This document shows, piece by piece, positions 3,215-40,658 of a DNA stretch of 64,000 nt. A model generated the notes under the pieces. It was not told the origin of the DNA and ran no database searches. It saw nothing but the letters and a program-made list of their open reading frames with translations. Source of the stretch: Lentisphaera profundi. Its GTDB lineage: Bacteria; Verrucomicrobiota; Lentisphaeria; Lentisphaerales; Lentisphaeraceae. The position numbers and the translations under genes were made by a program. Every line of letters starts with the position of its first letter. Position 1 is the first letter of the stretch. The stretch lies in the NCBI RefSeq assembly GCF_028728065.1, contig NZ_CP117811.1:2666001-2730000 (forward strand), in the 5' to 3' direction.

Positions 3215-3228
3215 TTTATTTCTCCTTG

Positions 3229-4816: not shown

Positions 4817-4861
4817 TAATAAACTAAATAAGATGTAATTTTCTGCGTTAATGGAAACTCC

Positions 4862-4889: not shown

Positions 4890-4897
4890 AATTATTC

Positions 4898-6415: not shown

Positions 6416-6803
6416 ATGTTCCCTTTATTTTTAATTGACTGCAAAAATATATAACATGAACAAAACAAAATGAAATGAAATGAAAAAACAATCCACAGTC
6501 CCTAGTGCCTCTACTTTCCTGTGAAAACTGTACATAAATCTCTTAAATTAGAGTTTTTATCATTTCGTCCTGAAGAAATAAACTTTGCTGGATACGCGAT
6601 CTTTAAAGATTCGCTACTTTGACCTTTAAAATCATCGCTGCCTGCAATACAGCACTTAAAAAATTTGGACGCATATAGATTTAAGATCTGTAAAAAAAGC
6701 TCCTTTTACAGTAAAATAGTGTTAGTTTTATCTCAAGAACCTCTATAGTTAGAATAGTCAAATTAATGATTTTCATCAAAAAAAATAAATTAGGACAAAA
6801 CAA
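6416..6803. other. Divergent intergenic region, no gene seen
   Basis: 388 bases between the sulfatase start and the DUF3313 gene start. AT-rich, with a short AAATGAAATG-type iteration near 6465-6485. It must carry both promoters. No ORF or RNA could be supported. Confidence 0.5.
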
Positions 6804-23723: not shown

Positions 23724-23737
23724 GATTTATTCCTTCA

Positions 23738-24817
23738 TCAATCCATGTAATACCAGAATTTTGGCTCAGTTCCCAAATCTTCTTTGAGGCGAAATACTTT
23801 TTTATTTTTAAGTATGTAGTTGAGTTCACTATCTGGATCTAGAATATTACCAAAAGTTCTAGCTCCCGTAGGACAAGCCTCTGCACAGGCAGGCTGTAAA
23901 CCTTCACGAGTTCGAGAAATACAGAAAGTACATTTTTCCATTGTACCCTTAGTACGTAGGCGGTTCCCTAAATAATGCTGTTCTTTGTTAATTTCTTTAG
24001 CTGGTACTTCAGGCTCATTCCAGTTAAAACGACGCGCCCAATAAGGACAAGCTGCTTCACAATAGCGACAACCCACACACCAATCATAATCAATGACCAC
24101 AATTCCATCTGGCTCTTGCCAGGTGGCTTGAACTGGACAAACCGTCGTACAAGGAGGGTTGGCACATTGAAAACATTGTGTTCCCAAATAAAAGTGCCCT
24201 TCTGCTGGAACCATGTGAGTGTAATCTGCTTTACCCTCTTCTAAATCTAAATGACCATTCTCCATTTCAAACATTCTAATATATTGCATATTAGTTTTGC
24301 GATCTTGATTATTTTCTTCTACACAAGCTTCTATGCAGTCTCCGTAACCCTGACATTTTGAGATATTAAAAGCATAACCATAAAGAGTGTTTGGCTGAGC
24401 TTTTGTGCCTTTAATTTCTGGTCTCACGCCATGATCTATCTCACTTAAGCGCTCTAGACGCTCAATACTTGCTTCGCGCTCCTTATCTGTCATTAAACGG
24501 TAATTACTTTTAAAATATTCATCCATTTTAATACCTGCACGTTCAGCTTTTTCCTCTTTTCCAAAAGAAAAACTACTCGAAGCTAAGGCCGCTCCAGCTG
24601 TTGCTGTATTGCGAATAAACTTTAATGCTTCACGTCTATTCACCGTTTTGTTTAGTGCACCTGTATCGATTGCATTTTCATCCTTTGGATCTTCACAAGA
24701 ACAATTTCCACCACAAGAATCACTGGATTTTTCTGCTTTGTTTTTCAAATAGTTTAATTCATTGGTCGCGCTTGATTCGAAGCCAAAAAATGATCTAAAA
24801 TTAAATTTTTTCATCAT
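23738..24817 (-). CDS. NrfC-like four-cluster ferredoxin with an extended Tat leader
   Basis: 359 residues. A Tat-like motif NRREALKFIRN with a hydrophobic AGAALASSSFSFG lies at about residues 60-85, behind a 60-residue extension that carries its own Cys group (SCGGNCSCED). The core has the four cysteine sets of the NrfC/PsrB/DmsB family: CQGYGDCIEAC, CFQCANPPCTTVCP, CVGCRYCEAACP and CTFC...CAEACP. It would relay electrons from the NrfD subunit to the cytochromes. The family is known; the long Cys-rich extension is unusual. Confidence 0.88.
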   Translation of the reverse strand: MMKKFNFRSFFGFESSATNELNYLKNKAEKSSDSCGGNCSCEDPKDENAIDTGALNKTVNRREALKFIRNTATAGAALASSSFSFGKEEKAERAGIKMDEYFKSNYRLMTDKEREASIERLERLSEIDHGVRPEIKGTKAQPNTLYGYAFNISKCQGYGDCIEACVEENNQDRKTNMQYIRMFEMENGHLDLEEGKADYTHMVPAEGHFYLGTQCFQCANPPCTTVCPVQATWQEPDGIVVIDYDWCVGCRYCEAACPYWARRFNWNEPEVPAKEINKEQHYLGNRLRTKGTMEKCTFCISRTREGLQPACAEACPTGARTFGNILDPDSELNYILKNKKVFRLKEDLGTEPKFWYYMD

Positions 24818-24823
24818 AATTCC

Positions 24824-25411
24824 TTAGTGATTTTTACCCGTTCTAGGGATTGTCGGACGTCCCTTTGGATGGCGTTGAGTGAAGGATGGACTATGGGGGT
24901 TATGACATTCAGTACAGTTCATAACCACGCGTTTTCCATACCACGAATGAAGTCGCTTACCATGTGCTCCTCCTGCCCAATCACGTTCCTGTTCAAAATG
25001 GCACTGTGAGCATAATTTATAGGCGTGATTAAAAGAAACTTCATCGCCATTATTGAGTCGTAAGCTATCCATATTTTTAGCATTATGGCATGTTCGACAA
25101 TCCATTACTGCTTGATTCGCATGCTGCATTTTGATATCTAAATGCATTAAGGCACTACGTTCATTTTGCTGTTGGCGATCGGGAAGTTCATCTTGGTGAC
25201 AATTTGAACAAGCAAATTGACCTATCTTAGATGTTCTATCGGCAACATAAAATTCCTTATGCCCCACCATCTTAACTAAATGAGATTTAATTCCTTGGAG
25301 TTTGTGGGCAACTTCTGGAAGTTTTTTTTGCGATAAGTCAGTTTTTTTCTCTGGTGAACAGGAGAAAATAAGCAGTGATAAGCAAATAAGCTGTAATTTG
25401 AGAAAGTTCAC
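24824..25411 (-). CDS. Tetraheme cytochrome c lipoprotein
   Basis: 195 residues. Lipoprotein signal ending LLIFSC, so it is membrane-tethered outside the cytoplasm. Four CxxCH haem motifs: CSNCH, CRTCH, CSQCH and CTECH. Extra His in QHANQ, HAYK and HGKRLHS can serve as second ligands. It overlaps the preceding cytochrome gene by four bases and lies six bases before the ferredoxin gene, so it belongs to the electron chain feeding NapA. I do not assign a named family beyond multihaem cytochrome c3-like. Confidence 0.85.
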   Translation of the reverse strand: MNFLKLQLICLSLLIFSCSPEKKTDLSQKKLPEVAHKLQGIKSHLVKMVGHKEFYVADRTSKIGQFACSNCHQDELPDRQQQNERSALMHLDIKMQHANQAVMDCRTCHNAKNMDSLRLNNGDEVSFNHAYKLCSQCHFEQERDWAGGAHGKRLHSWYGKRVVMNCTECHNPHSPSFTQRHPKGRPTIPRTGKNH

Positions 25412-26127
25412 TTATCCCTCTTCTGCTCTATCAAATTATTTCTTGAACGAATAAAAACTTCCGGAGTCGTTTTCGGTGTATGGCATTGTACGCAGTTAAC
25501 GCGCTCTGGGTGAGGACAACGAATTTCGATTAAGGCCGCTGGGCCACTATGACAAGCTTGACAATTCTCTCGTAGTTGAAGACTATGAGGAATCTGAAGA
25601 GGCCCACCTGGTAAAGCTGATTGCTTTAATTTTGGTGGATCTATTTTCTCCCATTCACTTCCTTTAAATAAATCATTCGCTTCATTTAAACCGTGACACT
25701 GAAGACAGTTTTTGTATTCCGGGTGAGGTGTTACCGGAGTAAAGCTTGAAAACTGCGGAGCATAGCCACCCTTTTCATGACAGACATTACAATTCTGAGT
25801 TAACTGCATTTCTTTACTCACTGGGTGGGGTATATGTGGCGGCGCACCTGGGTAAGCTCGACGTTTATAATATTCCTTTATACTCCTCGCTTTTGCTCCA
25901 CTTGGATTAGTCGCATTCAAGGGTGTCGTAGAACTCACTTTTTGAGCCTGAAACTTGGATTGAGGAATAAGGCCCATTGGAGCTAAGCGCTCTACTTTCA
26001 CCGTAATGTCTTTTAGCTTGTGTTGTTTTCTTAGATAGTTTCCTACTCCAAAAACAAGGACAAACATCAAAGATAAACTCAAAGCTACTTTGATTAAGCG
26101 AACTATGAATTTTTTTTCATTATTCAT
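25408..26127 (-). CDS. Tetraheme cytochrome made of two NapB-like halves
   Basis: 239 residues with one N-terminal anchor helix (about 11-28). Four CxxCH motifs fall in two similar halves. Half 1 runs YPGAPPHIPHPV, NCNVCH, TPHPEYKNCLQCH. Half 2 runs LPGGPLQIPHSL, NCQACH, CPHPERVNCVQCH. Each half has the PG-x-P-x-x-IPH start and two haems of NapB, the dihaem partner of NapA. A duplication is inferred. It sits nine bases after napA, the place NapB usually has. Confidence 0.85.
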   Translation of the reverse strand: MNNEKKFIVRLIKVALSLSLMFVLVFGVGNYLRKQHKLKDITVKVERLAPMGLIPQSKFQAQKVSSTTPLNATNPSGAKARSIKEYYKRRAYPGAPPHIPHPVSKEMQLTQNCNVCHEKGGYAPQFSSFTPVTPHPEYKNCLQCHGLNEANDLFKGSEWEKIDPPKLKQSALPGGPLQIPHSLQLRENCQACHSGPAALIEIRCPHPERVNCVQCHTPKTTPEVFIRSRNNLIEQKRDK

Positions 26128-26136
26128 TTTTCAGCC

Positions 26137-28479
26137 TCATATTTTTTCGATTCTAACCGAACATTTTTTGTAGTCTGGTTGTTTAGATATTGGGCAATAA
26201 GAATCTAGAGTTAGTTCATTGATCAGATAGTTTTCGTCGAAAAATGGGACAAAAACTTGACCGTCAACAGGGCGACCGCGACCATCTATTTTTACTTTAA
26301 AATTCATTTTTCCACGACGTGTAACTAAACGAACTTCTTCTCCATCGAGAATATTCATTCGTTTGGCATCATCACGACTCATTTCTACATAAGCTTCCGG
26401 AACTGATTTGTGTAAAGTAGGAATGCGGCGCGTCATTGAACCTGAGTGCCAATGCTCTAAAACTCGACCCGTACACAGCCAGAAGGGGTATTCATTATCT
26501 GGAACTTCTGGTGCTGGTTGAAAAGGTCTCAGCCAGATATTTGCTTTGTGATCTTTATTTCCATAAAAATCAAAACCACTACCTGGCTTACATGCAGGGT
26601 CATAATCTGAATTGAATCGCCATTGAGTCGATTTTCCGTTCACATAAGGCCACATGGCTCCTGCTTGACTTTTTAAGACCTCATAAGGTGCCATTCCATG
26701 TTTTGACCCAGCTTGGTGAAGGCAATACTCTTTGTAAATTTCTTCAATATGATTTTCATCATCCCAAGGAAATAAATTATTATAGCCCATGCGACGAGCT
26801 ACTTCCATGAGCTGTAATGTATCACTCATTGCCTCGCCTGGGGGTTCTACTAATTGATCAAAATGCTGTGTTCTTCTCTCTGAGTTCCCGTACATACCTT
26901 CACGCTCAATCCACATAGCTGAAGGTAAAATAACATCGGCAATGTCAGTCGTCGGAGTGGGATAAATATCGGAAACCACAATGAAACGACCTTCTTTCTG
27001 ACTCGCTTCTCGATAGCGTTTTAACTTCGGCATTGTTACCATGGGATTAGTCACCTGAATCCACATGAAACGTATATCACCACTATCCAATGCTCTAAAC
27101 ATATCTACTGTATGGTAAGTTGGTTTCGATGGAATATGGTCAGGGTCAACTCCCCAAATTTTAGCCGCATGTTCACGGTGTTGCTTATTCATAACCACTC
27201 CGTGAGGGAGTTTATGAGTTAGCGTACCCACTTCACGTACTGTACCACAAGCTGATGGTTGACCTGTTAAAGAGAATGGACTATTACCAGGAGTGGAAAT
27301 TTTTCCTGTGAGTAAATGAAGGTTATAGACGAGATTATTGATCCACGTTCCACGTGTATGTTGATTCATTCCCATACACCAAAGAGACATAACTTTGGTT
27401 TTCTTACTACCATATAAATGAGCTAAATAGCGTAGATCATCTGCACTCACACCCGTGTATTTAGCTACCGCTTCAGGAGTATAATCATCTAGAAAATCAC
27501 GGTAGGCTTCTAAATCAGAGGGCTTCGCTTCATCTGTGAATTTATAGCCATCTTCTAGGCCATAACCAATTGTCGCATGACCCTCAATTTTTGTTTTTCC
27601 TGATTTAAAGGAGACGTGCTTATCTAAGAAACTTTTATCAACTTTATCTTCTTTCAATAATTCATGTGCAATGGCATTCGCGATCGCTAAATCAGCTTGA
27701 GGAAGGAATAAAATTTGTTTATCTGCCGCTTCACCCGTTCGTGTCGTACGGGTTTCCATAGAAATGATTTTTACTGATGGATCTTTCAATCTTCTATCTA
27801 ACATGCGACTAAATAATATGGGATGCATCTCTGCCATATTATTGCCCCACAAAATAAATACATTTGCATGATCTATATCATCATAACAGCCCATTGGTTC
27901 ATCTGCACCGAAGGATGTTAAGAAGCCTGTAACAGCACTTGCCATACAGAGACGTGCATTGGCCTCTAAGTTATTAGTTCCAATACCCGCTTTCATAAAT
28001 TTCGAGGCTACATAACCATCTGGAATTGTCCATTGACCTGAACCATAAAGTGAAACAGAATCTTTTCCGTGTTGTTTTATAGTTTGTTGCATTTTTAAAG
28101 CGACTAAATCTAAAGCTTCTTTTATGGGTACTTCTTCTAATTTACCGTTTTTACGAACCATTGCTTTTTTGAGGCGGTCACTACCGTAAAGTGCCTGAAC
28201 TGAATGATAACCTTTGACACAGCATAAGCCTTTATTAACTGGAGAAGCGGGATCGCCCTTAACTGCAACCGCTTTGCCATGAGAAATTCCCACCAAAAGA
28301 CCACAACCCACACCACAAAAACGACAGGGTGTTTTTTTCCATTGAAACTGATCATCTTGATCCATTAATTCTGCGCGTTGCGCAAAGGCCGTCCCTGGTA
28401 ACATTGCATTAGCGGCTGCTACTGCAGAAGTGTAAGCCATACCCTTTAATAAACGTCTTCTTGATACATTATTATCCAT
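26137..28479 (-). CDS. napA: Periplasmic nitrate reductase catalytic subunit
   Basis: 780 residues from the ATG at 28479. The frame is open 16 codons further, but that would displace the Tat leader SRRRLLKG. Cys52, 55, 59 and 87 bind the 4Fe-4S cluster (CRFCGVGC...CVKG), and Cys178 in EANARLCMAS is the molybdenum ligand of Nap-type enzymes. MGMNQHTRGTWINNLVYNLHLLTG and SLTGQPSACGTVREVGT match classical NapA closely. It reduces nitrate to nitrite in the periplasm using the bis-MGD cofactor. It follows napD with an 11-base gap. Confidence 0.96.
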   Translation of the reverse strand: MDNNVSRRRLLKGMAYTSAVAAANAMLPGTAFAQRAELMDQDDQFQWKKTPCRFCGVGCGLLVGISHGKAVAVKGDPASPVNKGLCCVKGYHSVQALYGSDRLKKAMVRKNGKLEEVPIKEALDLVALKMQQTIKQHGKDSVSLYGSGQWTIPDGYVASKFMKAGIGTNNLEANARLCMASAVTGFLTSFGADEPMGCYDDIDHANVFILWGNNMAEMHPILFSRMLDRRLKDPSVKIISMETRTTRTGEAADKQILFLPQADLAIANAIAHELLKEDKVDKSFLDKHVSFKSGKTKIEGHATIGYGLEDGYKFTDEAKPSDLEAYRDFLDDYTPEAVAKYTGVSADDLRYLAHLYGSKKTKVMSLWCMGMNQHTRGTWINNLVYNLHLLTGKISTPGNSPFSLTGQPSACGTVREVGTLTHKLPHGVVMNKQHREHAAKIWGVDPDHIPSKPTYHTVDMFRALDSGDIRFMWIQVTNPMVTMPKLKRYREASQKEGRFIVVSDIYPTPTTDIADVILPSAMWIEREGMYGNSERRTQHFDQLVEPPGEAMSDTLQLMEVARRMGYNNLFPWDDENHIEEIYKEYCLHQAGSKHGMAPYEVLKSQAGAMWPYVNGKSTQWRFNSDYDPACKPGSGFDFYGNKDHKANIWLRPFQPAPEVPDNEYPFWLCTGRVLEHWHSGSMTRRIPTLHKSVPEAYVEMSRDDAKRMNILDGEEVRLVTRRGKMNFKVKIDGRGRPVDGQVFVPFFDENYLINELTLDSYCPISKQPDYKKCSVRIEKI

Positions 28480-28490
28480 AATATTTGTCC

Positions 28491-28721
28491 TCAATTTTGC
28501 ACTTGTCCGAAGGATAAGACAAGGCAATTTATATCTTTTACTTGCTTGATTTTTTCTTGAAGAAGCTTTTCGTGATCCTTATCCTTGGTCTCTGTAAGTA
28601 GAATGATAAGTTTCTTGTCATCCGAAAGCGTAACGTCACACTCAGGCATACTAGATAATTTGCTCATGAGGGCCTGTTCTTTTCCCTCGATTGGGTAGGC
28701 GAGATAACTACAAACTGGCAT
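28491..28721 (-). CDS. napD: NapD, chaperone for NapA
   Basis: 76 residues. MPVCSYLAYPIEGKEQALMSKL, then CDVTLSDDKKLIILLTET, has the ferredoxin-like fold pattern of NapD, which binds the Tat leader of NapA and holds back export until the cofactor is in place. It is first in the leftward operon, immediately before napA. Confidence 0.9.
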   Translation of the reverse strand: MPVCSYLAYPIEGKEQALMSKLSSMPECDVTLSDDKKLIILLTETKDKDHEKLLQEKIKQVKDINCLVLSFGQVQN

Positions 28722-29024: not shown

Positions 29025-29741
29025 ATGAATAGCTGTGTTTCTGAGTTCGAAAATAAAAGCCTCGGCGAAATTGTGAGTAAAAAGCCTTGGGCCGCTTTAG
29101 TCTTTGAAGAATTTAAACTCGATTATTGCTGCGGAGGAAAACAAAGCCTACTCGAAGCTTGTCAAAAAGCAGAACTTGACACTCATCTCGTAACAGAAAA
29201 AATCCAAGAACAAGAAGGACAAGCTAATAATTGGGACTGTCCAAAAGAAAGCCTAACAGAACTTTGTGACCATATTGAAGAAGCTCACCATCGTCATTTA
29301 GAAAACTTACTTCCAGAGCTCGAGCATCTCATTCAAAAAGTCGCTCATGCTCATGGAGATAATCATCCCTTTTTACATGAGCTTTTATTCGTTTTTCAGG
29401 GCTTACATGTGGAACTTATGCAACACATGGGCAAAGAAGAACAAATTCTTTTCCCCTTCTGCAAAATAATTGAGACCAGTACTGAAGCACAAAGTTTCCA
29501 CTGTGGCTCAGTAGCTAATCCCATCAGAGTTATGTGCATGGATCACGATAATGCCGGTGAAGTTTTAAGGGAAATCCGTCAATTAACTTCCAACTATGAA
29601 ATCCCTGATGATGTCTGTACGACTTACCGTATCATGATGGAAGAACTCCAGGCATTTGAACTGGATATGAAACAACATATTCACAAAGAAAATAATGTTC
29701 TTTATCCCATGGCTCTAAAAGCAGAGGCAAGTCTGCATTAA
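29025..29741 (+). CDS. ric: Iron-sulfur cluster repair di-iron protein (RIC/ScdA/YtfE)
   Basis: 238 residues. The N-terminal ScdA domain ends in LDYCCGGKQSL near residues 36-46. The hemerythrin-like part has the His/Glu ligands in HHRHLENLLPELEH, HVELMQHMGKEEQILFPF, DHDNAGEVL and HIHKENNVLYP. RIC proteins repair clusters damaged by nitric oxide and oxidants. Its place at the head of a nitrate-reduction operon fits defence against NO. AAGGAG lies just upstream. Confidence 0.95.
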   Translation: MNSCVSEFENKSLGEIVSKKPWAALVFEEFKLDYCCGGKQSLLEACQKAELDTHLVTEKIQEQEGQANNWDCPKESLTELCDHIEEAHHRHLENLLPELEHLIQKVAHAHGDNHPFLHELLFVFQGLHVELMQHMGKEEQILFPFCKIIETSTEAQSFHCGSVANPIRVMCMDHDNAGEVLREIRQLTSNYEIPDDVCTTYRIMMEELQAFELDMKQHIHKENNVLYPMALKAEASLH

Positions 29742-29746: not shown

Positions 29747-30100
29747 ATGACCAACTCGACTTCACATATAGCTTTTGAAAAAAAAGTCATCGCTTCAATG
29801 ATTAGGATTTATTGCGATCATAAACATTGCCAAAACAACGAGCTTTGCGAAGATTGCCATAAAATCTACCATTACTGCACTAAGCGTCTAGATAAATGCC
29901 CCTTTGGGGAGAACAAACCTGCTTGCCAGAATTGTCAGGTTCACTGTTACGAAAAAGTGATGCGACAAAGAGTCCGAAAAATAATGTCTTATGCAGGTCC
30001 AAGAATGCTGTACCGGCATCCTTTCATGAGTTTGAAGCATCTTTACCAAAGTAAAATTATTAAGGCTTTGAGCCTTAAAGAATATAAGCAAATTTCTTAA
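29747..30100 (+). CDS. ygbA: YgbA-type nitrous oxide-stimulated promoter family protein
   Basis: 117 residues, Cys-rich: IYCDHKHC, LCEDCHKIYHYC, KCPFGENKPACQNCQVHCY, then MRQRVRKIMSYAGPRMLYRHP. This order matches the YgbA family, which in enterobacteria is controlled by the NO sensor NsrR and linked to growth under nitrosative stress. It is five bases after ric, so the pair is an NO-response unit. Confidence 0.88.
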   Translation: MTNSTSHIAFEKKVIASMIRIYCDHKHCQNNELCEDCHKIYHYCTKRLDKCPFGENKPACQNCQVHCYEKVMRQRVRKIMSYAGPRMLYRHPFMSLKHLYQSKIIKALSLKEYKQIS

Positions 30101-30155: not shown

Positions 30156-31385
30156 ATGAAAAAAATAAACACTTTTAGAACTTGGCTATTGCTCAGTTTT
30201 TCATTGTCAATAATCCCATTATACGCCAATGCAGAATTAATTAGCGAAGGGGAAAAAACTTACGACGCTAATTGCGCTGCCTGCCATCAAAAAAAGGGTA
30301 TTGGTCAAGTGGGCCTTGCTCCAAGTATTGGCAATAGAGATTTCCTTGCTATCGCCTCCGATGACTTTATCAAAAGTGTTATTGCTCAAGGTCGAGCAGG
30401 TACTGCAATGGTGGCTCGCCCTGATTTATCTGGACAGAAAGTCGATGCTATAATTGCCTTTTTACGTTCTTTGCCTATTTCTAATCCCAAAGTTATCAAA
30501 GTTGATAATTCCTTGAAATTTACAGGTGATATTAAGAAAGGTGCCGACCATTACCTTAAGTTCTGTTCTTCTTGTCACGGTACAGAAGGACAGGGATATT
30601 CCTATGGTGGTCCAGGACCTGGTATTGGACTCCCTAGTTTTTTAAACCAAGCATCTGATGATTTTATTTTTCAAACTCTCAAACATGGACGTTCGGGTAC
30701 CGCAATGCTTAGCTTTATAGGTGCTACTGGCTTAGCTAACCTAAGTGAACAAGATGCCAAAGACATCATCGTTTTTTTGCGCAATATTGATAAGACTACC
30801 ACAACTAAAACATCGGCTCCTACTGGCGCATCACAATATTCACTCTGTGTGAGTTGTCACGGCCAAAACGCAGAAGGGAATATCGCTCTGAAAGCTCCTG
30901 CTCTCCAACATTTAAGTGAAGACTATATCGTTAAGAGCTTAAAAAAATTCAAATTAGGCGCTCGTGGTTATGACCCTAAAGATATTAATGGCGCCACAAT
31001 GAAAAGCATGGCGGGTATGATTGCTGATGACAAAACCATGGTGATGGTAGCCAAACACATAAAAAGCTTAGCTGTAAAAACACCCGCAGCCACCATCAAA
31101 GGTGATGCCACTTCTGGTGCCGCTCTTTACGCCATGTGTGTCGCCTGCCATGGCGCTAATGGCGAAGGTAATCCTCTACTTAAAGCTCCTGCACTCGCAG
31201 GGCAAGCTGATTGGTACATTGTTGCTCAACTCAAGAACTATAAAGCGGGCTTACGCGGTGTTCATGCTGGCGATCCCGAGGGTGCCTTAATGCGCCCAAT
31301 GTCGATGATTTTAGCCAATGATCAAGCCATCAATGATGTTGCCGCACATATACAAAATTTATCAAAAAATAAGAGGTCAAAATAA
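30156..31385 (+). CDS. Secreted cytochrome with four monohaem domains
   Basis: 409 residues. Signal peptide of about 26 residues. Haem motifs begin at C40, C137, C231 and C328 (CAACH, CSSCH, CVSCH, CVACH), about 95 residues apart, each opening a cytochrome c domain. Most have a later Met that can be the second ligand (GTAMV, GTAMLS, MKSMAGM, MRPMSM). Domains 3 and 4 are closest. Its stop overlaps the start of the second molybdoenzyme by one base (TAATG), so it is the likely electron carrier for that enzyme. Confidence 0.9.
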   Translation: MKKINTFRTWLLLSFSLSIIPLYANAELISEGEKTYDANCAACHQKKGIGQVGLAPSIGNRDFLAIASDDFIKSVIAQGRAGTAMVARPDLSGQKVDAIIAFLRSLPISNPKVIKVDNSLKFTGDIKKGADHYLKFCSSCHGTEGQGYSYGGPGPGIGLPSFLNQASDDFIFQTLKHGRSGTAMLSFIGATGLANLSEQDAKDIIVFLRNIDKTTTTKTSAPTGASQYSLCVSCHGQNAEGNIALKAPALQHLSEDYIVKSLKKFKLGARGYDPKDINGATMKSMAGMIADDKTMVMVAKHIKSLAVKTPAATIKGDATSGAALYAMCVACHGANGEGNPLLKAPALAGQADWYIVAQLKNYKAGLRGVHAGDPEGALMRPMSMILANDQAINDVAAHIQNLSKNKRSK

Positions 31386-34033
31386 TGAAACGACGTTCAT
31401 TTATAAAAGGCTCAGCCGCCATGGGTGCGGCCGCTGGTGTATCAGGAAGCAAAGGCTGGGCAGTTCCCGGCAGTGATAAGATTGAACTTGAAGGGAAAAA
31501 GTGCGCTACTAATTTACTGGCTGCTTGTCCTTATTGTGGTGTGGGTTGTGGTACCATTATTCAGACGAAAAATGGCAAAATCACTAATATCCTCCCCGAT
31601 AAAGATCACCCCACTAACAAAGGTTTACAGTGTATCAAGGGCCTCACCTCTGCTGAAGCCATCTACGTAAATCGCTTAACAAAACCTCTCATTCGAAAAG
31701 ATATGTCCGATCCTCATACTGGACATATTTCAAAGACAAAAGGCTCTTATGACCCCAAACATTTCCGCGAAGCAACTTGGGAAGAAGCTGACGAGTTAAT
31801 TACGGATAAAATAGTTGAATTAGTACAGGAATATGGTGGTAACTCTATCGGACTCTACGGTTCTGGACAACTTCCCGTTGAAGGCCAATACTTAGAAAAC
31901 CTCTTCATGAAGGGGGTTTTAGGTTCTAACACAATCGAAGCTAACGCTAGAATGTGTATGACTTCAGCTGTTACGGGTTACTTCAAGGCTTTGGGCTCTG
32001 ATACGCCTCCGACCTGCTACGATGATATCGAAATTTCAGATATGATCTGTTTTTGGGGTCACAACGCTCGCGGTTCACACCCCATTCTCTACTGGCGTGT
32101 AGCTGATCATAAATCTAAAAATGATATTCCCACCCTCTGTGTTGACCCACGCCGTACAGGTACGGTAGCAGGGCTCGAGGAAATCAACCCTGAAAACAGT
32201 ACACATTTCCCCACCATTAATGGGGATATCTCCATTCATAATGCCATTGCTTATGCGATCATGGAAAAACATCCTGAAGCAGTCGATTGGAATTTACTTA
32301 AAAATCACACCACTGGTTGGGAAACTTACGTAGAAGAAGTCAAAAAAGACTACCGTCCTGAAGATGTAATTGATCGTACCATGATTCCAGCTGAAGAAAT
32401 CTATGCACTAGCTGCAACTTGGGCCGAAGCCTCGATCAAAGGTAAAAAACGTGGTCAAGGTGGCGTGCTTGCCTTCTGGGGCATTGGCTATAATCAACAC
32501 CTACATGGTCAGCATAATACGATGAGTCTTATTAACCTCATGGCTTTAACGGGTAATATTGGTCGTCCTGGTTGCGGACCGCATTCTCAAACGGGTCAGC
32601 CTAACGCCATGGGTGAACGTCTCACTGGTGGCCTCACTGGTCGCCTACCCTTTAATATCGGACTTGATGACGATAAGCACCGTGCTGTAATGGCCGAAGC
32701 TTGGGGCGTTCCCAAAGCCCGTCTCGATGCCGTTGCGAGTGCCGCAAATCCTGGTATGGCAGTCGGCATGATGGAACGCGCTCTTAAAGGTGAAGTCAAA
32801 GCCATGTTTATGATCTATGCTACGCATATTGACCTCCCAGATGCTTATAACTTATCGCGCCCAGCGATGACCAAAATGTTCACCGTCTCTCAAGAGATCT
32901 ACAAAGACGCACCAAATAATCTTTACTCAGATATCATTCTACCTGCAGCTACTTGGGGTGAATGGGTCGGTGGAACCTACGTTCAGTCCGAACGTCGTTT
33001 CTACGTTTGCGATGGTACCGCCAACCCGGTGAAAGGTTGCCGTCCAGATATGGATATGGTCATCGATAAAATTAAATCAATCGGTGAAAAATTAGGTCTT
33101 GATCCCAAAAAGATCGCACCTTATGAACGCAAAGAAAATGGTTATTATGATCCTGAAGAAGTCTTCCGCGATTTCCTTAAAGCCTCTAAGGGAACAGATG
33201 CCGACCTTACTGGAATTCTAGAAGTAGAAAAAGAAACGGGTAAATCTCCCTACCAACAAATTCGTGACCTACGTGGTATTCAATGGCCTGCACCTACTGC
33301 GGCTATTGCAAAAGCAGGGGGAACTAAACGTCGTTATATGGGTCAAGAATCGTACTGGCCAGATAAACCCTATGCAGAATTTCGACACCCTGATGGTAAA
33401 CTGCATATCCACATGTGCCGTCAGGATTATAGCAACTATAAGGAAGTCACCGACGAACTCAAAAAACTCGGTACAGATCCTAATTACTTTGCTATTGATC
33501 ACCTCGATGTACTCGTGAAGGCCCGTGATGCTGGCTTGACTCCCGAGCTTCCGGACAAGGACTTCCTCGGTAAAAAAATCGGTACTGTCCCCAAAGACAA
33601 ATTCCCCTTCTGGTGGGCTACTGGCGTAGTTTACGAGCATTTCCATACTGCGAAAACCATCCGTGCGGGTACTACGAAGAAACTCGTCCCAGAAATGTAT
33701 GTGGAAATGCACCCTGAAGACGCCGCAGAGCTAGGTGTGAAAGATGGTCAGTGGGTCAAAGTCATTACGCGACGTAATAATCCCAATGATAAAAATAACG
33801 AAGCCTATATAGAAGCTCGTGTTTCAATCGGTCTCGACTCGGTAGTTAAGCCGGCTCGTAACACAGTTCCCAAGGGCTTTCTTTTTAGTCCCTGGAATCT
33901 CTCTGTTGCCGATAGTGCCGACCCTGCGAAAAATCGCTGGTTAGCTAATGGCACGACTCACCGCGCCTTCGACCCTGTCTCAGGCCAGGCAGACTTCAAA
34001 AAGAATGCCTGTAGAATTGAACCCTTAAGCTAA
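31385..34033 (+). CDS. Second NapA-like molybdopterin oxidoreductase
   Basis: 882 residues. Leader MKRRSFIKGSAAMGAAAG is Tat-like. Cys48, 51, 55 and 83 bind a 4Fe-4S cluster; Cys191 (EANARMCMTS) is the predicted molybdenum ligand, so it belongs with the Nap/Nas group. It differs from NapA: GYNQHLHGQHNTMSLINLM replaces the usual QHTRG block, SQTGQPNAMGERLTGGLTG replaces SLTGQPSACG, and there is an added region at about 590-710. Nitrate is a reasonable substrate guess, not proven. NapGH-like and cofactor genes follow. Confidence 0.85.
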   Translation: MKRRSFIKGSAAMGAAAGVSGSKGWAVPGSDKIELEGKKCATNLLAACPYCGVGCGTIIQTKNGKITNILPDKDHPTNKGLQCIKGLTSAEAIYVNRLTKPLIRKDMSDPHTGHISKTKGSYDPKHFREATWEEADELITDKIVELVQEYGGNSIGLYGSGQLPVEGQYLENLFMKGVLGSNTIEANARMCMTSAVTGYFKALGSDTPPTCYDDIEISDMICFWGHNARGSHPILYWRVADHKSKNDIPTLCVDPRRTGTVAGLEEINPENSTHFPTINGDISIHNAIAYAIMEKHPEAVDWNLLKNHTTGWETYVEEVKKDYRPEDVIDRTMIPAEEIYALAATWAEASIKGKKRGQGGVLAFWGIGYNQHLHGQHNTMSLINLMALTGNIGRPGCGPHSQTGQPNAMGERLTGGLTGRLPFNIGLDDDKHRAVMAEAWGVPKARLDAVASAANPGMAVGMMERALKGEVKAMFMIYATHIDLPDAYNLSRPAMTKMFTVSQEIYKDAPNNLYSDIILPAATWGEWVGGTYVQSERRFYVCDGTANPVKGCRPDMDMVIDKIKSIGEKLGLDPKKIAPYERKENGYYDPEEVFRDFLKASKGTDADLTGILEVEKETGKSPYQQIRDLRGIQWPAPTAAIAKAGGTKRRYMGQESYWPDKPYAEFRHPDGKLHIHMCRQDYSNYKEVTDELKKLGTDPNYFAIDHLDVLVKARDAGLTPELPDKDFLGKKIGTVPKDKFPFWWATGVVYEHFHTAKTIRAGTTKKLVPEMYVEMHPEDAAELGVKDGQWVKVITRRNNPNDKNNEAYIEARVSIGLDSVVKPARNTVPKGFLFSPWNLSVADSADPAKNRWLANGTTHRAFDPVSGQADFKKNACRIEPLS

Positions 34034-34075
34034 ACTACTGAGCAGTGAGAGTGCCACTCTTGCTGCTCGTAGTTT
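34032..34075 (+). other. Intercistronic RNA hairpin
   Basis: AAACTAC-GAGCAG-AGAGT pairs with ACTCT-CTGCTC-GTAGTTT with one bulge and a two-base mismatch. It begins at the molybdoenzyme stop codon and has no T-run, so it may be a processing or stabilising hairpin, or a weak attenuator. Confidence 0.6.
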
Positions 34076-34099
34076 ATGAGCTTTTAGTTTAGGAAAAAA

Positions 34100-34732
34100 A
34101 TGAAATTAAGTCGTAAAAGATTTTTACTGAGTTTCGCTGCGGGGGTGGTCCTACCACTGCTGATACCTTTGATTGATAAGCTCCCAAAAAATTCACGCTT
34201 AAAAAGGTTCTTACGTCCCCCGGGTGCAGGTTCTGAAAAAGAATTTCTCAAGGCCTGTATAGGCTGTGGCGAATGTGCTAATGTTTGTCCCAATAAGTGT
34301 ATTGAAATGCATGGACTTGATCAAGGTTTAGAGAATTTAGCAACGCCAAAAATAATTGCACGTTCAAGAGCCTGTACACTGTGCATGGCCTGTACTCAAA
34401 TTTGTCCTACTGATGCCCTCAAGAAACTTGAGCCTACTGAGGAAGGAATGAAAGCCGTCGATATGGGTAAAGCCTACCTTTCTACTGATATCTGTTATTC
34501 CTTTCATGGTCGTACCTGCGGTGTTTGCTACCGTGCTTGTCCTCTCCCTGGTGTTGCTATGACCATTGGTCTTTTTGAGCAACCGACTATCCATCAAGAT
34601 GCCTGTGTCGGCTGTGGACTTTGCGAGAGTGCCTGCATTCACATGCCACAAGCTGTACGAATTGTTCCAAAGCATGAACTAGAGGCCATGAAACCTCGTA
34701 ATGAGCTCGCATTTATTAAGGTTCCAAAATAA
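34100..34732 (+). CDS. napG: NapG-like ferredoxin
   Basis: 210 residues with an N-terminal hydrophobic leader (KRFLLSFAAGVVLPLLIPL) and RPPGAGSEKEFLKACIGCGEC, the usual NapG/MauM start of the cluster region. Four Cys sets follow: CIGCGECANVCP, CTLCMACTQICP, CGVCYRACP and CVGCGLCESAC. NapG with NapH passes electrons from quinol to periplasmic nitrate reductase. It overlaps napH by one base. Confidence 0.88.
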   Translation: MKLSRKRFLLSFAAGVVLPLLIPLIDKLPKNSRLKRFLRPPGAGSEKEFLKACIGCGECANVCPNKCIEMHGLDQGLENLATPKIIARSRACTLCMACTQICPTDALKKLEPTEEGMKAVDMGKAYLSTDICYSFHGRTCGVCYRACPLPGVAMTIGLFEQPTIHQDACVGCGLCESACIHMPQAVRIVPKHELEAMKPRNELAFIKVPK

Positions 34733-35679
34733 TGAAAAAGAAATTTATCACTGGCAAAAAACTTCTGATTTTTTCAGTTATTTCCCGTAGCTTGGTTCTA
34801 TTATTACTTTGCCTCTTAGCGATGTGGACCGAATACCTCAACTTAAAAGTTGGTTACAATAATGCTCGCTTGGTAGAATTAAGTGCGGGAAGTGATCGCC
34901 CTATCTATGGTAAATTACTACGACAATTCTATGAAAGTTCTGATGCCTTTTTTTCATTTTTTGGTGATCCTATTCAAGTTATGCAAAGCAATGGTGGCAT
35001 GACTTGGTCGATTCGCCTCATGGGTGTCCCCTTTAGTGATCCTGTTGCAGGGATGGCTCTGATTGCTCGTAATCATACCCTGCCATTAAGTTTTGGCTTA
35101 GGCTTAATCATTCCACTCACAATTGTTTTACTTTTCGGACGTGTATTCTGTTCCTATATATGTCCTGCTTCTCTAGTCTTTTTTATTGCCGCTCGTATAA
35201 GACGTTACCTCGGTAAATTCTTTATTTTTCCCGAATTCAATACCAGCCCAGCTTTAGCTTGGGGTATCCTTTGTGGTGGCTTGCTTTGCTCGACATTATT
35301 TGGTTATGGTATCTGGACGCTCATTTTACCTTACTTTGCGATTGGCCAAACTATTTTTCATGGCCTTGCTTTTGGGACCCTATCCGTCACTATCATTTCA
35401 CTTGCCTTCTTTCTCACTTTTGACCTTATACTCGGTCAACAATTTACCTGTAGGAACCTTTGTCCCACGGGACGTCTTTTGGGCTTTCTTGGACAAAAAT
35501 CAAAGGTTATTATTAAGCGTGATGCCTCACAATGTGTTGACTCGTGTCATTCATGTACTCAAATCTGCCCTCTCAAAGTGGATCCCAAAAAAGACGAAAC
35601 GCGCGATTGCTCCTTATGTGGAGAATGCCTCAGTGTCTGCCCATCCAAATGCCTTAGCGTAGGAATCAGAAAAAAATGA
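34732..35679 (+). CDS. napH: NapH-like membrane ferredoxin
   Basis: 315 residues with about four to five membrane helices. C140-S-Y-I-C144-P is the NapH CxxxCP motif, repeated later as CRNLCPTGRL. Two ferredoxin sets at the C-terminus (CVDSCHSCTQICP, CSLCGECLSVCP) face the cytoplasm. The protein oxidises quinol with NapG as partner. Start and stop overlap the neighbours, showing tight co-translation. Confidence 0.88.
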   Translation: MKKKFITGKKLLIFSVISRSLVLLLLCLLAMWTEYLNLKVGYNNARLVELSAGSDRPIYGKLLRQFYESSDAFFSFFGDPIQVMQSNGGMTWSIRLMGVPFSDPVAGMALIARNHTLPLSFGLGLIIPLTIVLLFGRVFCSYICPASLVFFIAARIRRYLGKFFIFPEFNTSPALAWGILCGGLLCSTLFGYGIWTLILPYFAIGQTIFHGLAFGTLSVTIISLAFFLTFDLILGQQFTCRNLCPTGRLLGFLGQKSKVIIKRDASQCVDSCHSCTQICPLKVDPKKDETRDCSLCGECLSVCPSKCLSVGIRKK

Positions 35680-36278
35680 AATCACTCCGCCATTTTATCT
35701 TATTAAGTTTCATCTTGGGCCTAAGTGCCTCACTCTATGGCCATCACTTCAAAGGGCTACCTCACTTTTCTTACTTTGAAAATTATCCGCAGATCCCCGT
35801 CGATGAATACATCGGCCAATGCGATTCCTACGAGTTCTCTCTCGTTATTTATGATTTTCAGGGCATCAATAAACTCGATGCTCAACAACCCGATGATGTC
35901 CGACTCTTTCTAGTCATCTTCAATTTGCTCGAAAATAAAACTTATCAAGGTCCCGTAACGCTGAAAGTCATGGATGGTGAGACAGAAGTTCAATCGGAAT
36001 ATTTTCCAAATTCTGTCGAAGAAAGTATCTATACGCTACAACGCAATCTCAGTGAAACGGGTGATTTTTCACTCAAGGTTATATTACATGACCCTGCAGG
36101 TAAACTTGAAGGCACGATCCCCTTTCTTCTCTCCAATCAAAAAATTAACTGGGCACTATGGATTTCCGGCTCACTCTGTTTGATCATCGTTTGTGTAGCT
36201 TATGGTTCACGCCAAGCTCGCCTCAAACAAGATCGCAAAGAAAACCATCAAGCACAAATACTTAAGCCTAGGGATTAA
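35676..36278 (+). CDS. Periplasmic-domain protein with C-terminal anchor, nap-associated
   Basis: 200 residues. Signal peptide (about 1-21, ending ASLYG), a soluble beta-rich domain with HHFKGLPHFSYFENYPQIP near its start and PVTLKVMDGETEV in the middle, then one transmembrane helix at about 163-182 and a basic tail. I do not recognise the family; the layout resembles FixH/YtkA-like accessory proteins. The His-rich start could bind metal. It overlaps napH by four bases and is two bases before the next gene. Confidence 0.65.
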   Translation: MKSLRHFILLSFILGLSASLYGHHFKGLPHFSYFENYPQIPVDEYIGQCDSYEFSLVIYDFQGINKLDAQQPDDVRLFLVIFNLLENKTYQGPVTLKVMDGETEVQSEYFPNSVEESIYTLQRNLSETGDFSLKVILHDPAGKLEGTIPFLLSNQKINWALWISGSLCLIIVCVAYGSRQARLKQDRKENHQAQILKPRD

Positions 36279-36279
36279 A

Positions 36280-37860
36280 ATGAATTACTCACTGCTCGCT
36301 CAAGAACAAAGTGTAAGTAAAATTGCTGATGCGGTTATGCAAAGTTGCTGTTCTCAATCAGTTCAAGGTATTCCGAACTGGTTAGCCTCCGCAAGTATTG
36401 CTGCCATACTCATTTTTTCACATATTTTTATTAACAGTAAGGCCTCCTTTAAAATCAAATCTTATTGGACCTTTAATCTCTTTGAGAAATTCCCCTTACT
36501 ACTCAAAATTGTTAAAAAAAATAGCTTCCCTTTAATAATCCAGTCGCTCTCTATTTTTCTCTTTCTTTTTATAATTTTTGCGGGCTTTTTTGGAAGTCAA
36601 CGCATTAGTATTGTGCCGATGTTAGTGTGGACTATATGGTGGATTTTATTGATTTTTCTAGCCGCGGGTTTTGCCACAACTTTCTGTGCTATATGTCCTT
36701 GGGAAGGACTCAGTTCGATCATTAGTTCGCTCTCTTTACGCTCACGTAAAAAGAAAATTGGCTTTGAAATGAAATGGCCAAAAAAACTTAAGAATGTCTA
36801 TCCCGCTCTCGGTCTTTTTGTCTTCCTCACTTGGCTAGAACTCGGCATTGATGATATGACTAAATCTCCTTCTATGTCCGCAATTATGGGGCTCATTTTT
36901 TTAGCTATAGCCATATTGACGGTTAGCATATTTGAAAAAAGAGTTTTTTGTCGATACCTCTGTATGGTTGGTCGCATTAGTGGACTTTATGCCATGTTTA
37001 GCCCTCTCGAACTTCGCGGTAAATCCATGGATGTCTGCAATGCTTGTACAACGAAAGATTGTTTACGTGGCAATGAAAAAGCGACTGGTTGCCCCACCAT
37101 GCTATTTCCCGGTGGCATCAATGATAATAATTATTGTACGATGTGTACAGAATGTGTACGAGCCTGTCCTCATGATAATATGGCCCTCAATATACGCTCT
37201 GTTGCTGCGGACCTTATTCATCGTTCACGCTTTAAAATGGATGAAGCTTTTTTTGCTGTAACTTTGCTTGCTCTCACTAGTTTTCATGGAATCACTATGA
37301 CTCCATCTTGGAATATTATGGTGGATATGACCCGTGCGATGACGGGTTTAAGCCAAGCCCCCATTTTTAGCTTACTGATGATATTTATGATTCTTATACC
37401 GATGGGGATTTTTTGGTTCTCTGCTTGGACAACAAAACAGCTGACTTGCAATCATAAAATGCGAACGAGAGACTTTTTTAAAGCTTTTGCTTACCCACTT
37501 ATTCCCGTTGCCCTTTTTTATCATTTGGCTCACAATGGCATGCACTTTTTCATGGAAGCTCAGAATATCATCCCTTTGCTTTCAGATCCTATGGGTTGGG
37601 GCTGGGACCTTTTCGGTACCGCAACAAAAACATACGCACCCATGCTTTCCTTGACTAGTATTTGGTATCTTCAGGTTATCCTCATTGTCATAGGCCATAT
37701 TTTTGGTGTTATCGTTGCCGATCGTATTGCCAAAGTTCTCTTTAAGGATCGTAAGAATTTTATTCGCTGTCTTATTCCACAACTAATCGTGATGATTCTT
37801 TATTCCAGTTTCAGTATATGGTTAATTGCTCAACCGATGGAAATGCGTACGGGAATGTAA
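36280..37860 (+). CDS. NapH/NosR-like polytopic iron-sulfur protein
   Basis: 526 residues from the ATG at 36280. The frame is open 26 codons upstream, but that overlaps the previous gene. About ten membrane helices. Two CxxxCP-type motifs (CAICPWEG near residue 142; CRYLCMVGR near 224, where Met replaces Pro) precede a Cys-rich loop CNACTTKDC...CPTM and CTMCTECVRACP. This is the NapH/NosR/CcoG architecture of quinol-linked electron transfer to the periplasm. It is a second such protein in the operon, much larger than the first. Confidence 0.8.
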   Translation: MNYSLLAQEQSVSKIADAVMQSCCSQSVQGIPNWLASASIAAILIFSHIFINSKASFKIKSYWTFNLFEKFPLLLKIVKKNSFPLIIQSLSIFLFLFIIFAGFFGSQRISIVPMLVWTIWWILLIFLAAGFATTFCAICPWEGLSSIISSLSLRSRKKKIGFEMKWPKKLKNVYPALGLFVFLTWLELGIDDMTKSPSMSAIMGLIFLAIAILTVSIFEKRVFCRYLCMVGRISGLYAMFSPLELRGKSMDVCNACTTKDCLRGNEKATGCPTMLFPGGINDNNYCTMCTECVRACPHDNMALNIRSVAADLIHRSRFKMDEAFFAVTLLALTSFHGITMTPSWNIMVDMTRAMTGLSQAPIFSLLMIFMILIPMGIFWFSAWTTKQLTCNHKMRTRDFFKAFAYPLIPVALFYHLAHNGMHFFMEAQNIIPLLSDPMGWGWDLFGTATKTYAPMLSLTSIWYLQVILIVIGHIFGVIVADRIAKVLFKDRKNFIRCLIPQLIVMILYSSFSIWLIAQPMEMRTGM

Positions 37861-37861
37861 A

Positions 37862-38410
37862 ATGACTATTTCACGTCGACAGTTATTTCGCCTGCGCCCC
37901 TCAAAATTGATGGACTTGGCTTTTGAGGATAAAAAAGAATCCAAAATAAAATCATATATTCGTCCCCCTGGGGTCGTAAGTGAGGATTTATTTTTGGATA
38001 AATGTGACAATTGTTCGGCTTGTCTTGAAGCGTGCCCTCATGGTGTAATCAAAAAACTTGGACCTGAAGCGGGTAAATTTGAGTATACTCCATATTTAAA
38101 CCCTCGAGAACTTCCCTGTCATTGGTGTACTGATTTTGATTGTATAAAGGCTTGTCCTTCGGGCGTATTAAGTAAAAATAATGATGAAAAAGTTAAGCCT
38201 ATAGCGAAAGCCCTTGTCGATATGAATTCATGTCTTATTAGTTTAGGAACAATTTGCGATGAATGTCGTAGTGTATGCCCTTCTGAACTTCGCGCTATTA
38301 AAATTTTTGATAGACAAGTTCACATTGATTTGGATAAATGCTCTGGTTGTGGACTCTGTTCCTTTTACTGTGATAATGCCGGTTCCGCAATTAAAATAGA
38401 AAATATATAA
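37862..38410 (+). CDS. NapF/NapG-like ferredoxin
   Basis: 182 residues from the ATG at 37862, one base after the stop of the NapH/NosR-like gene. MTISRRQLFRLRP and RPPGVVSEDLFLDKC resemble the start of NapF/MauM ferredoxins. Cys sets: CDNCSACLEACP, CHWCTDFDCIKACP, CDECRSVCP, CSGCGLCSFYC. No membrane helix, so it is probably cytoplasmic, as NapF, which helps NapA mature. Could instead be an electron carrier. Confidence 0.8.
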   Translation: MTISRRQLFRLRPSKLMDLAFEDKKESKIKSYIRPPGVVSEDLFLDKCDNCSACLEACPHGVIKKLGPEAGKFEYTPYLNPRELPCHWCTDFDCIKACPSGVLSKNNDEKVKPIAKALVDMNSCLISLGTICDECRSVCPSELRAIKIFDRQVHIDLDKCSGCGLCSFYCDNAGSAIKIENI

Positions 38411-38446
38411 CTATGTGTCAAATGTTAAATGATAAGGAAAAAAGAA

Positions 38447-39646
38447 ATGATTAGCGTTCTTGAAGCTACTCAGCTTATTGAAAAATTTAGCCCCATTTAC
38501 CCATCTAAAAAACTCGCAACGGCTCTTTGCTCCGAGCATATTCTTCGTGAAAATATTTGTGCTGAACGAGAAAACCCACCTTTTCATCGTATCGCCATGG
38601 ATGGCATTGCCATCAATTTTCAAAGCTATTTGGATGGCAAAAGATCTTTTCTCATTGAGGGCATTCAAGCTGCTGGTCACGAGCCCCTTGAGCTTAAAAA
38701 CTTGGAAAATTGTTTTGAAGCTATGACTGGTGGAGTATTGCCTCATCATTGTGATTGTGTGATTCCCATCGAACGCCTAAGTGTGGAAAATGGTGTCGCA
38801 AGTTTAGAGACTGGTTTAGAATTGAGTCAATGGCAGAATATTCATAAACATGGCAGTGATCATGCTGCAGGGTTTTTACTCGCTGAAGAAGGAATAAGAC
38901 TCAAAGTACCCGATATCGCCGTTGCCGCTGCTGCAGGTTATGGATTCTTAGATGTTTCAAAAACTCCTTCTATTGCCATTATTGCGACAGGAGATGAATT
39001 AGTCGGCCCAGACGAAGAACTCAAGGCTTGGCAAATCCGTCGCTCCAATACAGTAGCCATCCTCGCAGGCTTAAATGCAGCTGGTTTCACTAAAAGTAAT
39101 GAATATCACCTCAAAGATGATGAAGCTGAACTTGAAAGAAAACTAGCTGAACTCCTAGAGCAAAACGACATGCTGATTCTTACTGGTGGAGTCTCCATGG
39201 GGAAATTCGATTTTGTCCCCCGTGTGCTCGAAAAACTAGGTGTTAATAAAGTTTTTCATAAAGTGGCTCAACGACCAGGCAAACCCTTGTGGTTTGGCGT
39301 TAAAGGCCAAAAAACAGTCTTTGGTTTACCCGGTAACCCGGTCTCGGCAGTCATTAATTTTCAGCGTTATATTTTACCTCAATTACAAAAAAGCTCTGCT
39401 TGTTTGCCTCAAAAACAGATTCCACTCGCAGTACTCACTAAAGATTTTAAATTCTCTAAAAAGATGACTCGTTTCTTACCCGTTACGACCTATTTTGATG
39501 CTAACTCTCGCTTATGTGCGACTCCAAAAGAAACAAATGGCTCTGGTGATTTTGGCGCTTTATCTGGATCTGATGGTTTTTTAGAACTCGAAGCCGAAAC
39601 TGACCTTTTTCCCGAAGCTTATTCTGCTCCCTTTTATACCTGGTAA
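38447..39646 (+). CDS. moeA: Molybdopterin molybdenumtransferase
   Basis: 399 residues from the ATG at 38447, behind AAGGA. Family blocks are present: FHRIAMDGIAI, TGGVLPHHCDCVIPIE, IATGDELV, TGGVSMGKFDFVP and GLPGNPVSAVINF. MoeA inserts molybdate into molybdopterin, the cofactor of both reductases here. It follows the nap-type genes by 36 bases and precedes moaA by four. Confidence 0.93.
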   Translation: MISVLEATQLIEKFSPIYPSKKLATALCSEHILRENICAERENPPFHRIAMDGIAINFQSYLDGKRSFLIEGIQAAGHEPLELKNLENCFEAMTGGVLPHHCDCVIPIERLSVENGVASLETGLELSQWQNIHKHGSDHAAGFLLAEEGIRLKVPDIAVAAAAGYGFLDVSKTPSIAIIATGDELVGPDEELKAWQIRRSNTVAILAGLNAAGFTKSNEYHLKDDEAELERKLAELLEQNDMLILTGGVSMGKFDFVPRVLEKLGVNKVFHKVAQRPGKPLWFGVKGQKTVFGLPGNPVSAVINFQRYILPQLQKSSACLPQKQIPLAVLTKDFKFSKKMTRFLPVTTYFDANSRLCATPKETNGSGDFGALSGSDGFLELEAETDLFPEAYSAPFYTW

Positions 39647-39650
39647 CTCT

Positions 39651-40658
39651 ATGGAAGTTTTCGATAAATTTACACGACCCATGCGGGATTTAAGGATTTC
39701 AGTTATTGATGTCTGTAATTTTCGCTGTTTATATTGCATGCCCCCAGATCAAGATTACGAATTTTTTAAAAATGACGAAAAATTAAGCCCTGATGAATTT
39801 GTTCGCTTAGCTAATATTTTCGTAAAACTCGGCGTTCAACGCATACGAATTACTGGTGGCGAACCGCTTTTACATCCCAAACTTAATCAAATTATTTCTG
39901 AAATAAACGAAATTGAAAACTTAGTCGATTTATCTATAACCACTAATGCGAGTTTATTAACAGAAAAAGCTCCTTTACTAAAGGAGGCCGGTATTCGTCG
40001 TATTACCGTATCCCTTGACTCACTTGATCCAGAAAAATTTAAATTAATGAATGGTGGTAGAGGCAATCTAGATGATGTTTTATCTGGGATTGATACTGCC
40101 ATCAAATTAGGTTTTAAAGAACTCAAAATTAATACTGTCATCGAAAAAGGCATTAACGAATACCAAATTTTACCGCTCACACGTTATGCTCGCGAAAAAG
40201 GACTCATATTAAGATTTATTGAGTTTATGGATGTGGGAAATAAGAATGAATGGAATATGAAAAAAGTATTACCTTCTGCTGAAGTAAGAAAAATTATTAG
40301 TTCGGAATTTGAACTCAAGGCACGAGAATCCAACTTTTATGGAGAAGTTGCTGGACGTTATGAATTTGCTGATAAAAAGGGAGAAGTTGGTTTCATATCT
40401 TCTGTAACAGAAGCTTTTTGTTCTTCGTGTACAAGAGCCAGAATTTCTTCTGATGGCAAACTTTATACCTGTCTATTTTCCGGACGAGGCTTTGATTTAA
40501 AAACCTTACTTCGCGATGGATCAAGTGATCAAAGTATTGCTGAAAAAATTTGTGGGGTTTGGGAAAATCGAAGCAATCGTTATTCTGAAGAACGCCAGGA
40601 AGCACTGAAAAATCCACGTACCCACGATATTGTAGAAATGTTTAAAATTGGTGGCTAA
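39651..40658 (+). CDS. moaA: GTP 3',8-cyclase, first step of molybdenum cofactor synthesis
   Basis: 335 residues. CNFRCLYCMPP is the radical-SAM cluster. A second cluster is formed by FCSSC...LYTCLFS near the C-terminus, and the protein ends in the required Gly-Gly. The enzyme rearranges GTP to the cyclic pterin precursor. It closes the rightward operon; the other moa/mog genes are not in the window. Confidence 0.95.
   Translation: MEVFDKFTRPMRDLRISVIDVCNFRCLYCMPPDQDYEFFKNDEKLSPDEFVRLANIFVKLGVQRIRITGGEPLLHPKLNQIISEINEIENLVDLSITTNASLLTEKAPLLKEAGIRRITVSLDSLDPEKFKLMNGGRGNLDDVLSGIDTAIKLGFKELKINTVIEKGINEYQILPLTRYAREKGLILRFIEFMDVGNKNEWNMKKVLPSAEVRKIISSEFELKARESNFYGEVAGRYEFADKKGEVGFISSVTEAFCSSCTRARISSDGKLYTCLFSGRGFDLKTLLRDGSSDQSIAEKICGVWENRSNRYSEERQEALKNPRTHDIVEMFKIGG

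Follow-up and report, generated by a model that had tools for sequence, protein, structure and literature searches.

A third lineage of Nap/Nas-type molybdenum enzymes, encoded in a putative respiratory operon of Lentisphaera profundi

Periplasmic nitrate reductases of the NapA type (TIGR01706 / PRK13532; solved structures 2nap, 2jio, 2nya, 1ogy and 3ml1) are exported by the Tat pathway, contain a [4Fe-4S] cluster and Mo-bisPGD, and have a Cys-Met pair at the Mo site. Periplasmic Nap-type systems can coexist in one organism, as do Nap-alpha and Nap-beta of Shewanella, both of which use a true NapA (PMC6308320), and denitrification by the cultured sulfur oxidiser Thiolapillus brandeum reportedly involves two Nap enzymes (PMC4136832). 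In Campylobacter and Wolinella, periplasmic nitrate reduction is proposed to be fed by a Qcr complex with Rieske/cytochrome b proteins and a dihaem c4-type subunit; NapB is the acceptor, NapA is canonical, and the NapGH proteins, also present, have been proposed in Campylobacter to act in maturation (PMC6195509). A large survey of the MopB superfamily reports novel branches, and the passages of it accessible here do not identify the enzyme described below (PMC10100899).

The window examined in this study, a stretch of 64,000 nucleotides from Lentisphaera profundi, contains two nap-like loci. The first (22515-28721, - strand) is of the NapD-NapA-cytochromes-NrfC-NrfD type rather than a textbook NapABC/GH cluster, and matches a Flammeovirga plasmid cluster with 72% identity in NapA; its NapD-like gene is a 76-aa ORF recognized by inspection (28491-28721). 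The second locus (30156-38410) is made of seven tightly packed genes, all intact and transcribed in one direction, with junctions of 0-70 bases (Table 1). One of them encodes an 882-aa NapA-like enzyme, hereafter NapA*. Given that the genes are intact and that their predicted products give strong domain matches, chance is not at issue. The operon probably runs on to moeA and moaA, and moaA homologues are also found near the NapA* operon in four other loci (L029, L068, L077 and L086).

Table 1. Genes of the NapA* operon and its neighbours in the window: predicted product, position, strand and basis of assignment
RIC/ScdA/YtfE di-iron Fe-S repair protein (nitric-oxide stress), upstream neighbour	29025..29741	+	NCBIfam TIGR03652 222 bits, cut-off 204.7
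YgbA-type 'nitrous oxide-stimulated promoter' family protein, upstream neighbour	29747..30100	+	NF007714 121 bits, cut-off 88; PF11756
Exported cytochrome c with four class-I haem domains, in NapB's place	30156..31385	+	PF00034 four stretches; four CXXCH
NapA*, Tat-exported Mo-bisPGD/[4Fe-4S] oxidoreductase, 882 aa, Cys191 likely Mo ligand	31385..34033	+	
NapG-like ferredoxin, four [4Fe-4S] motifs	34100..34732	+	PRK09476 NapG 122 bits, below cut-off 269
NapH-like membrane ferredoxin	34732..35679	+	TIGR02163 115.6 bits, below cut-off 213
200-aa periplasmic protein: signal peptide, beta-sandwich domain and C-terminal TM helix (membrane anchor)	35676..36278	+	
NosR/NapH-like polytopic membrane [4Fe-4S] protein	36280..37860 (likely start; ORF opens 36202)	+	
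Second NapG/NapF-like [4Fe-4S] ferredoxin	37862..38410 (likely start; ORF opens 37826)	+	PRK09476 97.5 bits, below cut-off
MoeA-like molybdenum insertase	38429..39646	+	translation inspected; 18-base gap after operon
MoaA-like radical SAM enzyme of molybdopterin synthesis	39651..40658	+	translation inspected

This gene content agrees with a preliminary description of the locus, which listed a four-domain cytochrome, the enzyme, NapG/NapH-type proteins and a periplasmic protein; its count of two NapGH-type modules holds if the NosR/NapH-like protein is taken as a second NapH. NapA* was also said to be about 100 residues longer than NapA. Such is the case in comparison with the window's own NapA (796 aa as listed, ~780 from the likely Met start), but not with E. 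coli NapA (828 aa), which NapA* exceeds by ~54 residues. Besides the Tat signal, the enzyme has an Fe4S4 domain, a molybdopterin domain and a dinucleotide-binding domain, and its largest internal insertions span residues 108-119, 610-621 and 678-732. As in NapA systems, NapG and NapH genes lie beside that of the enzyme, together with NapC in Proteobacteria. Unlike NapA systems, the operon has a class-I cytochrome, an extra NosR-like/NapG module and several clade-only residues in its enzyme; NapB and NapD are found neither in the operon, which leaves no unassigned coding gap, nor in the conserved block of related loci.

Divergence from NapA, claimed in the preliminary description, was evident when NCBIfam models were used. 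NapA* scored 297.7 bits with TIGR01706 (cut-off 930.55) and 327.6 bits with NF010055 (cut-off 904), thus missing the equivalog level, while the other NapA of the window (26137-28527) reached 973 bits with the latter model. When 48 aligned members of the NapA* family were compared with NapA, formate dehydrogenase and Nas models, the best E-values were ~1e-107 and none was lower; the true NapA of the window reaches 1e-292. No NarG model matched the window's NapA* at 1e-3, and the Mo-ligand position is Cys, as opposed to the Asp expected of NarG. Identity as a formate dehydrogenase was rejected as well: all 48 members have Cys-Met at the Mo site, the corresponding pair in E. coli FdhF being Sec/Cys-His. 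NapA* is not covered by any curated NCBIfam family, and a description of the family was not found in the open-access papers searched.

A maximum-likelihood tree of 41 sequences gave a consistent picture. All NapA* sequences fall into a single clade (100/100), whose stem measures 1.85 changes per site; the 12 NapA rows form a separate clade (100/100) that does not include them. NapA* thus falls outside the clade of proven NapA, placement inside a clade of proven nitrate reductases being the outcome for which the preliminary description would have given up the new-substrate idea. Nas rows make up another group (92/80), outside Nap plus NapA*. Grouping of the latter two has 99/94 support (97/84 after dropping the two longest rows), and the separation of Nap, Nas and the NapA* family from formate dehydrogenase rows has moderate support (83/90). 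A tree in which the family is held with Nas instead of Nap is not rejected (p-AU 0.234), so that a position as sister of Nap is preferred rather than settled. The best solved-structure matches of NapA* are NapA enzymes, both by profile and by fold, and the nearest match of its AlphaFold model (mean pLDDT 82) is D. desulfuricans Nap (TM 0.73/0.89). Judged from sequence, NapA* is best placed in the Nap/Nas group as a third lineage, which probably lies nearer to Nap; its predicted mode of working is likened to that of Nap, yet by the tests made it is not a NapA.

A different Cys-Met MopB protein of 730-745 aa, with the motif CGYCSTGC or CGFCSTGC, was detected beside NirB-like genes in gammaproteobacteria (L221:5537-7732 and L227:8044-10224) and also in the genome to which the window belongs (C2:2250969). 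Its score, 593 bits, is below the formate dehydrogenase cut-off of 666, and it looks like another Nas-type lineage.

Active-site residues were examined in the alignment (numbering is that of the window's NapA* unless E. coli NapA is indicated). Invariant positions in the 48 members are the four cluster cysteines, Lys85, Arg189, Cys191-Met192, Gln405 and Arg412. The residues common to all NapA and nearly all Nas rows are these same ones plus Gln162, Asp206, Asn227, His232 and Gln371. NapA* therefore shows the marks of a Nap/Nas-type enzyme, namely the Cys-Met pair, the Arg at E. coli position 418, the Gln at 410, the four cluster Cys and the bridging Lys. At two funnel positions the enzyme is unlike Nap: E. 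coli Glu195 corresponds to Thr207, and Met197 to Pro209, the latter as in Nas. Substitutions found in the clade only, relative to E. coli NapA, lie near active-site loops and include A217 to Arg229, M372 to Ile367, N482 to Thr480, R720 to Val748 and W725 to Phe753. With Nas/NarB, NapA* shares the Cys-Met ligand region, a Pro where NapA has Met197, and a 'TGQPNAMG' stretch; it differs in being Tat-exported, in having respiratory neighbours and in its place in the tree.

At least 80 loci, with 57-82% identity, were found when 84,980 species genomes were scanned. Carriers are found in Verrucomicrobia and relatives, Planctomycetota, Myxococcota (Myxococcales), Alpha- and Gammaproteobacteria and others, and many come from marine, seep and vent samples. 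Named isolates are Photobacterium profundum, P. indicum, Shewanella gelidimarina, S. abyssi and a Ruegeria. Among 369 sampled gammaproteobacterial genomes, 24 carry NapA* at 60-64% identity, the next match being at 37%, a sharp break between the family and other enzymes. Classical NapA is co-resident in 19 of the 48 carriers tested (~40%), in some of them as two copies; S. gelidimarina and S. abyssi, for instance, have two NapA each in addition to NapA*. Classical NapA is likewise present in the cultured carriers identified here (Photobacterium, Shewanella, Ruegeria), which for this reason offer no clean phenotype.

NapA* is rare near the window's organism. Only 4 of 388 genomes of its phylum have it, its own included, and examination of 40 relatives revealed a single additional genome of the same class with NapA*, while two genomes of the same genus were without it. 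The operon has a G+C content of 0.43 (window, 0.37), and transposase-like ORFs lie on both sides of the region (1320-2686, 8277-9269 and 47663-48877). Recent acquisition of the operon would fit the transposase-like flanks, the G+C difference and the absence from the two congeneric genomes.

Conservation of the neighbourhood was examined by clustering the ORFs of 84 loci, many of which lie on contigs that end short of the full locus. The order cytochrome-NapA*-NapG-NapH is kept across phyla, and most relatives with a long enough contig have a cytochrome homologue immediately upstream of the enzyme. Cytochrome and NapG/F clusters include 68 loci each, NapH 65, the NosR-like protein 43 and a NapC-type pentahaem cytochrome 31. 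The number of haems in the cytochrome varies: two in Proteobacteria, mostly four in the window's relatives and ten in L013, L014 and L091. Next to the operon in L013 and L014 lie genes for an FAD/ferredoxin protein, a Rieske protein and a cytochrome b (domains confirmed for L013). An N-oxide or anaerobic context is found in several loci, with RIC in five, nirK beside L019, FNR directly upstream in L165, hemN beside L163 and L167, and aprA beside L159 and L165; the neighbours of L013 include an ammonium transporter and NrfH-like and octahaem cytochromes. Two further observations are a NosR-like protein with an N-terminal YHS domain (L014:1162-3111, - strand) and a long thioredoxin-like/DUF255-type gene that adjoins the operon in seven loci (L050, L053, L056, L064, L065, L079 and L090).

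The 200-aa periplasmic protein belongs to a family present in 42 of the 84 loci (as two clusters), fused to NapH in L013/L014, and matches no Pfam family. A His-His pair (H23 H24), invariant in 31 homologues, lies right after the predicted signal peptide and would make up the mature N-terminus. The AlphaFold model (pLDDT 87) has the copper proteins CrdA and PmoD as nearest folds, with weak similarity (E 2.8e-3), and a role in metal handling is possible.

These arrangements support the earlier suggestion of a second electron route: the operon is without NapB and NapD, class-I cytochromes of two, four or up to ten haems stand where NapB would be, and Rieske/cytochrome b genes adjoin some loci. 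We infer the substrate, the direction and the electron order of the NapA* system as follows. Quinol would be oxidised by two membrane modules, NapH-NapG and the NosR-like protein with the second NapG; a NapC-type pentahaem cytochrome may be a further quinol-side module in Proteobacteria, and a Rieske/cytochrome b complex in a few lineages. Electrons would then pass to the multi-domain class-I cytochrome c that replaces NapB, and from it to the [4Fe-4S] cluster of the enzyme and the Mo-bisPGD site, where nitrate would be reduced to nitrite. Of the two NapGH-type modules, one may function in maturation and not in respiration. By analogy, Campylobacter Nap may be taken as a model, without being a demonstration, both for the role of the cytochrome and for the existence of two NapGH-type modules. 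The analogy is partial: NapA* is non-canonical, its class-I cytochrome is encoded next to it, and bc1-type genes lie beside only some loci.

Two single-contig genomes, G519 (2.92 Mb) and G571 (3.11 Mb), bear upon the substrate. Each has five PF00384 proteins, of which one is NapA* and another NuoG; a third is of the SoeA type and has SoeB/SoeC-like neighbours, and the remaining two are Nas-type proteins that lack a Tat signal (SoeA, NuoG and Nas were assigned by similarity, length and context). The PF00384 search found neither napA nor narG in these genomes, and a missed narG is unlikely because PF00384 picks up E. coli NarG at 2.5e-76. As predicted from its signal, NapA* is the sole exported Mo-bisPGD enzyme in both. 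The two genomes also have nirS and nir biogenesis genes, and the stretch covered includes norC- and norB-like genes in G519 and norD-like genes in G571. Being the sole exported candidate in nirS genomes argues for nitrate as the substrate, even if it is no proof, as a denitrifier may start from nitrite. Association with denitrification across draft genomes is weak: among 24 carriers without detected NapA or NarG, mostly draft genomes, NirK, NirS or NrfA was found in 7, and weight was thus shifted to G519 and G571. The window's genome harbors nrfA, so that any nitrite formed could be used.

Altogether, these observations suggest that the operon encodes a third lineage of Nap/Nas-type, Cys-ligated Mo nitrate reductase that likely works as a periplasmic respiratory enzyme. 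An alternative, doubtful but deserving attention, is a respiratory reductase for another oxyanion (e.g., iodate, selenate or chlorate), derived from Nap/Nas stock and fed by the same kind of electron supply. The long stem, the clade-only residues in active-site loops, the co-residence with one or two classical NapA and the class-I, probably high-potential cytochrome donors all agree with such an enzyme, which would act on a second substrate as envisaged in the preliminary description. However, the Arg-x-Cys-Met, Gln and Arg residues of nitrate reductases are kept, and the denitrifiers G519 and G571 have no exported candidate for nitrate other than NapA*; neither fact supports a second substrate. 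As for iodate, an iodate-reductase-like idrAB-P1P2 cluster does adjoin the operon in L050, a Kiloniellaceae locus (927-6602, - strand: IdrA/AioA-like protein, Rieske protein and two dihaem peroxidases, divergently oriented). Yet this is one of at least 80 loci, and the cluster would itself account for iodate; the link was set aside. Related dihaem peroxidase genes were found in L028, L030 and L063, with no idrA beside them in the stretch covered. Were the acceptor another oxyanion, which we consider a shade more doubtful when extended to ecology, it would be a dedicated acceptor in marine bacteria, and a common unnamed anaerobic respiration would exist in ~6% of the sampled gammaproteobacterial species.

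Nitrate could also be the substrate in a different capacity. A high-affinity or redox-balancing reductase, acting beside NapA or Nas and not as the main respiratory enzyme, would suit the ~40% of tested carriers with classical Nap and the presence of Nas in the window's genome; it appears improbable, as G519 and G571 carry NapA* without NapA and NarG, and in some sulfur oxidisers the adjoining FNR and aprA genes point to anaerobic respiration. That NapA* is an ordinary NapA duplicate is very improbable: the general architecture is the same and the nearest solved structures are NapA, but the score is about one third of the NapA cut-off, the clade is separate and the operon lacks NapB and NapD. 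An ordinary paralogue was accordingly rejected on model score and tree. Hardly credible is operation in reverse, from nitrite to nitrate. Class-I cytochromes could accept the electrons; the quinol-side modules (NapH/NapG, NapC, NosR-like) and the FNR neighbour, however, fit a reductase.

A periplasmic respiratory nitrate reductase of this third lineage would matter for the way in which nitrate respiration is recorded. Genome surveys call it from napA and narG models, and NapA* lies far below the cut-offs of those models. If NapA* reduces nitrate, some organisms now counted as devoid of the first denitrification step, such as G519 and G571, would in fact have it, by way of a different electron chain.
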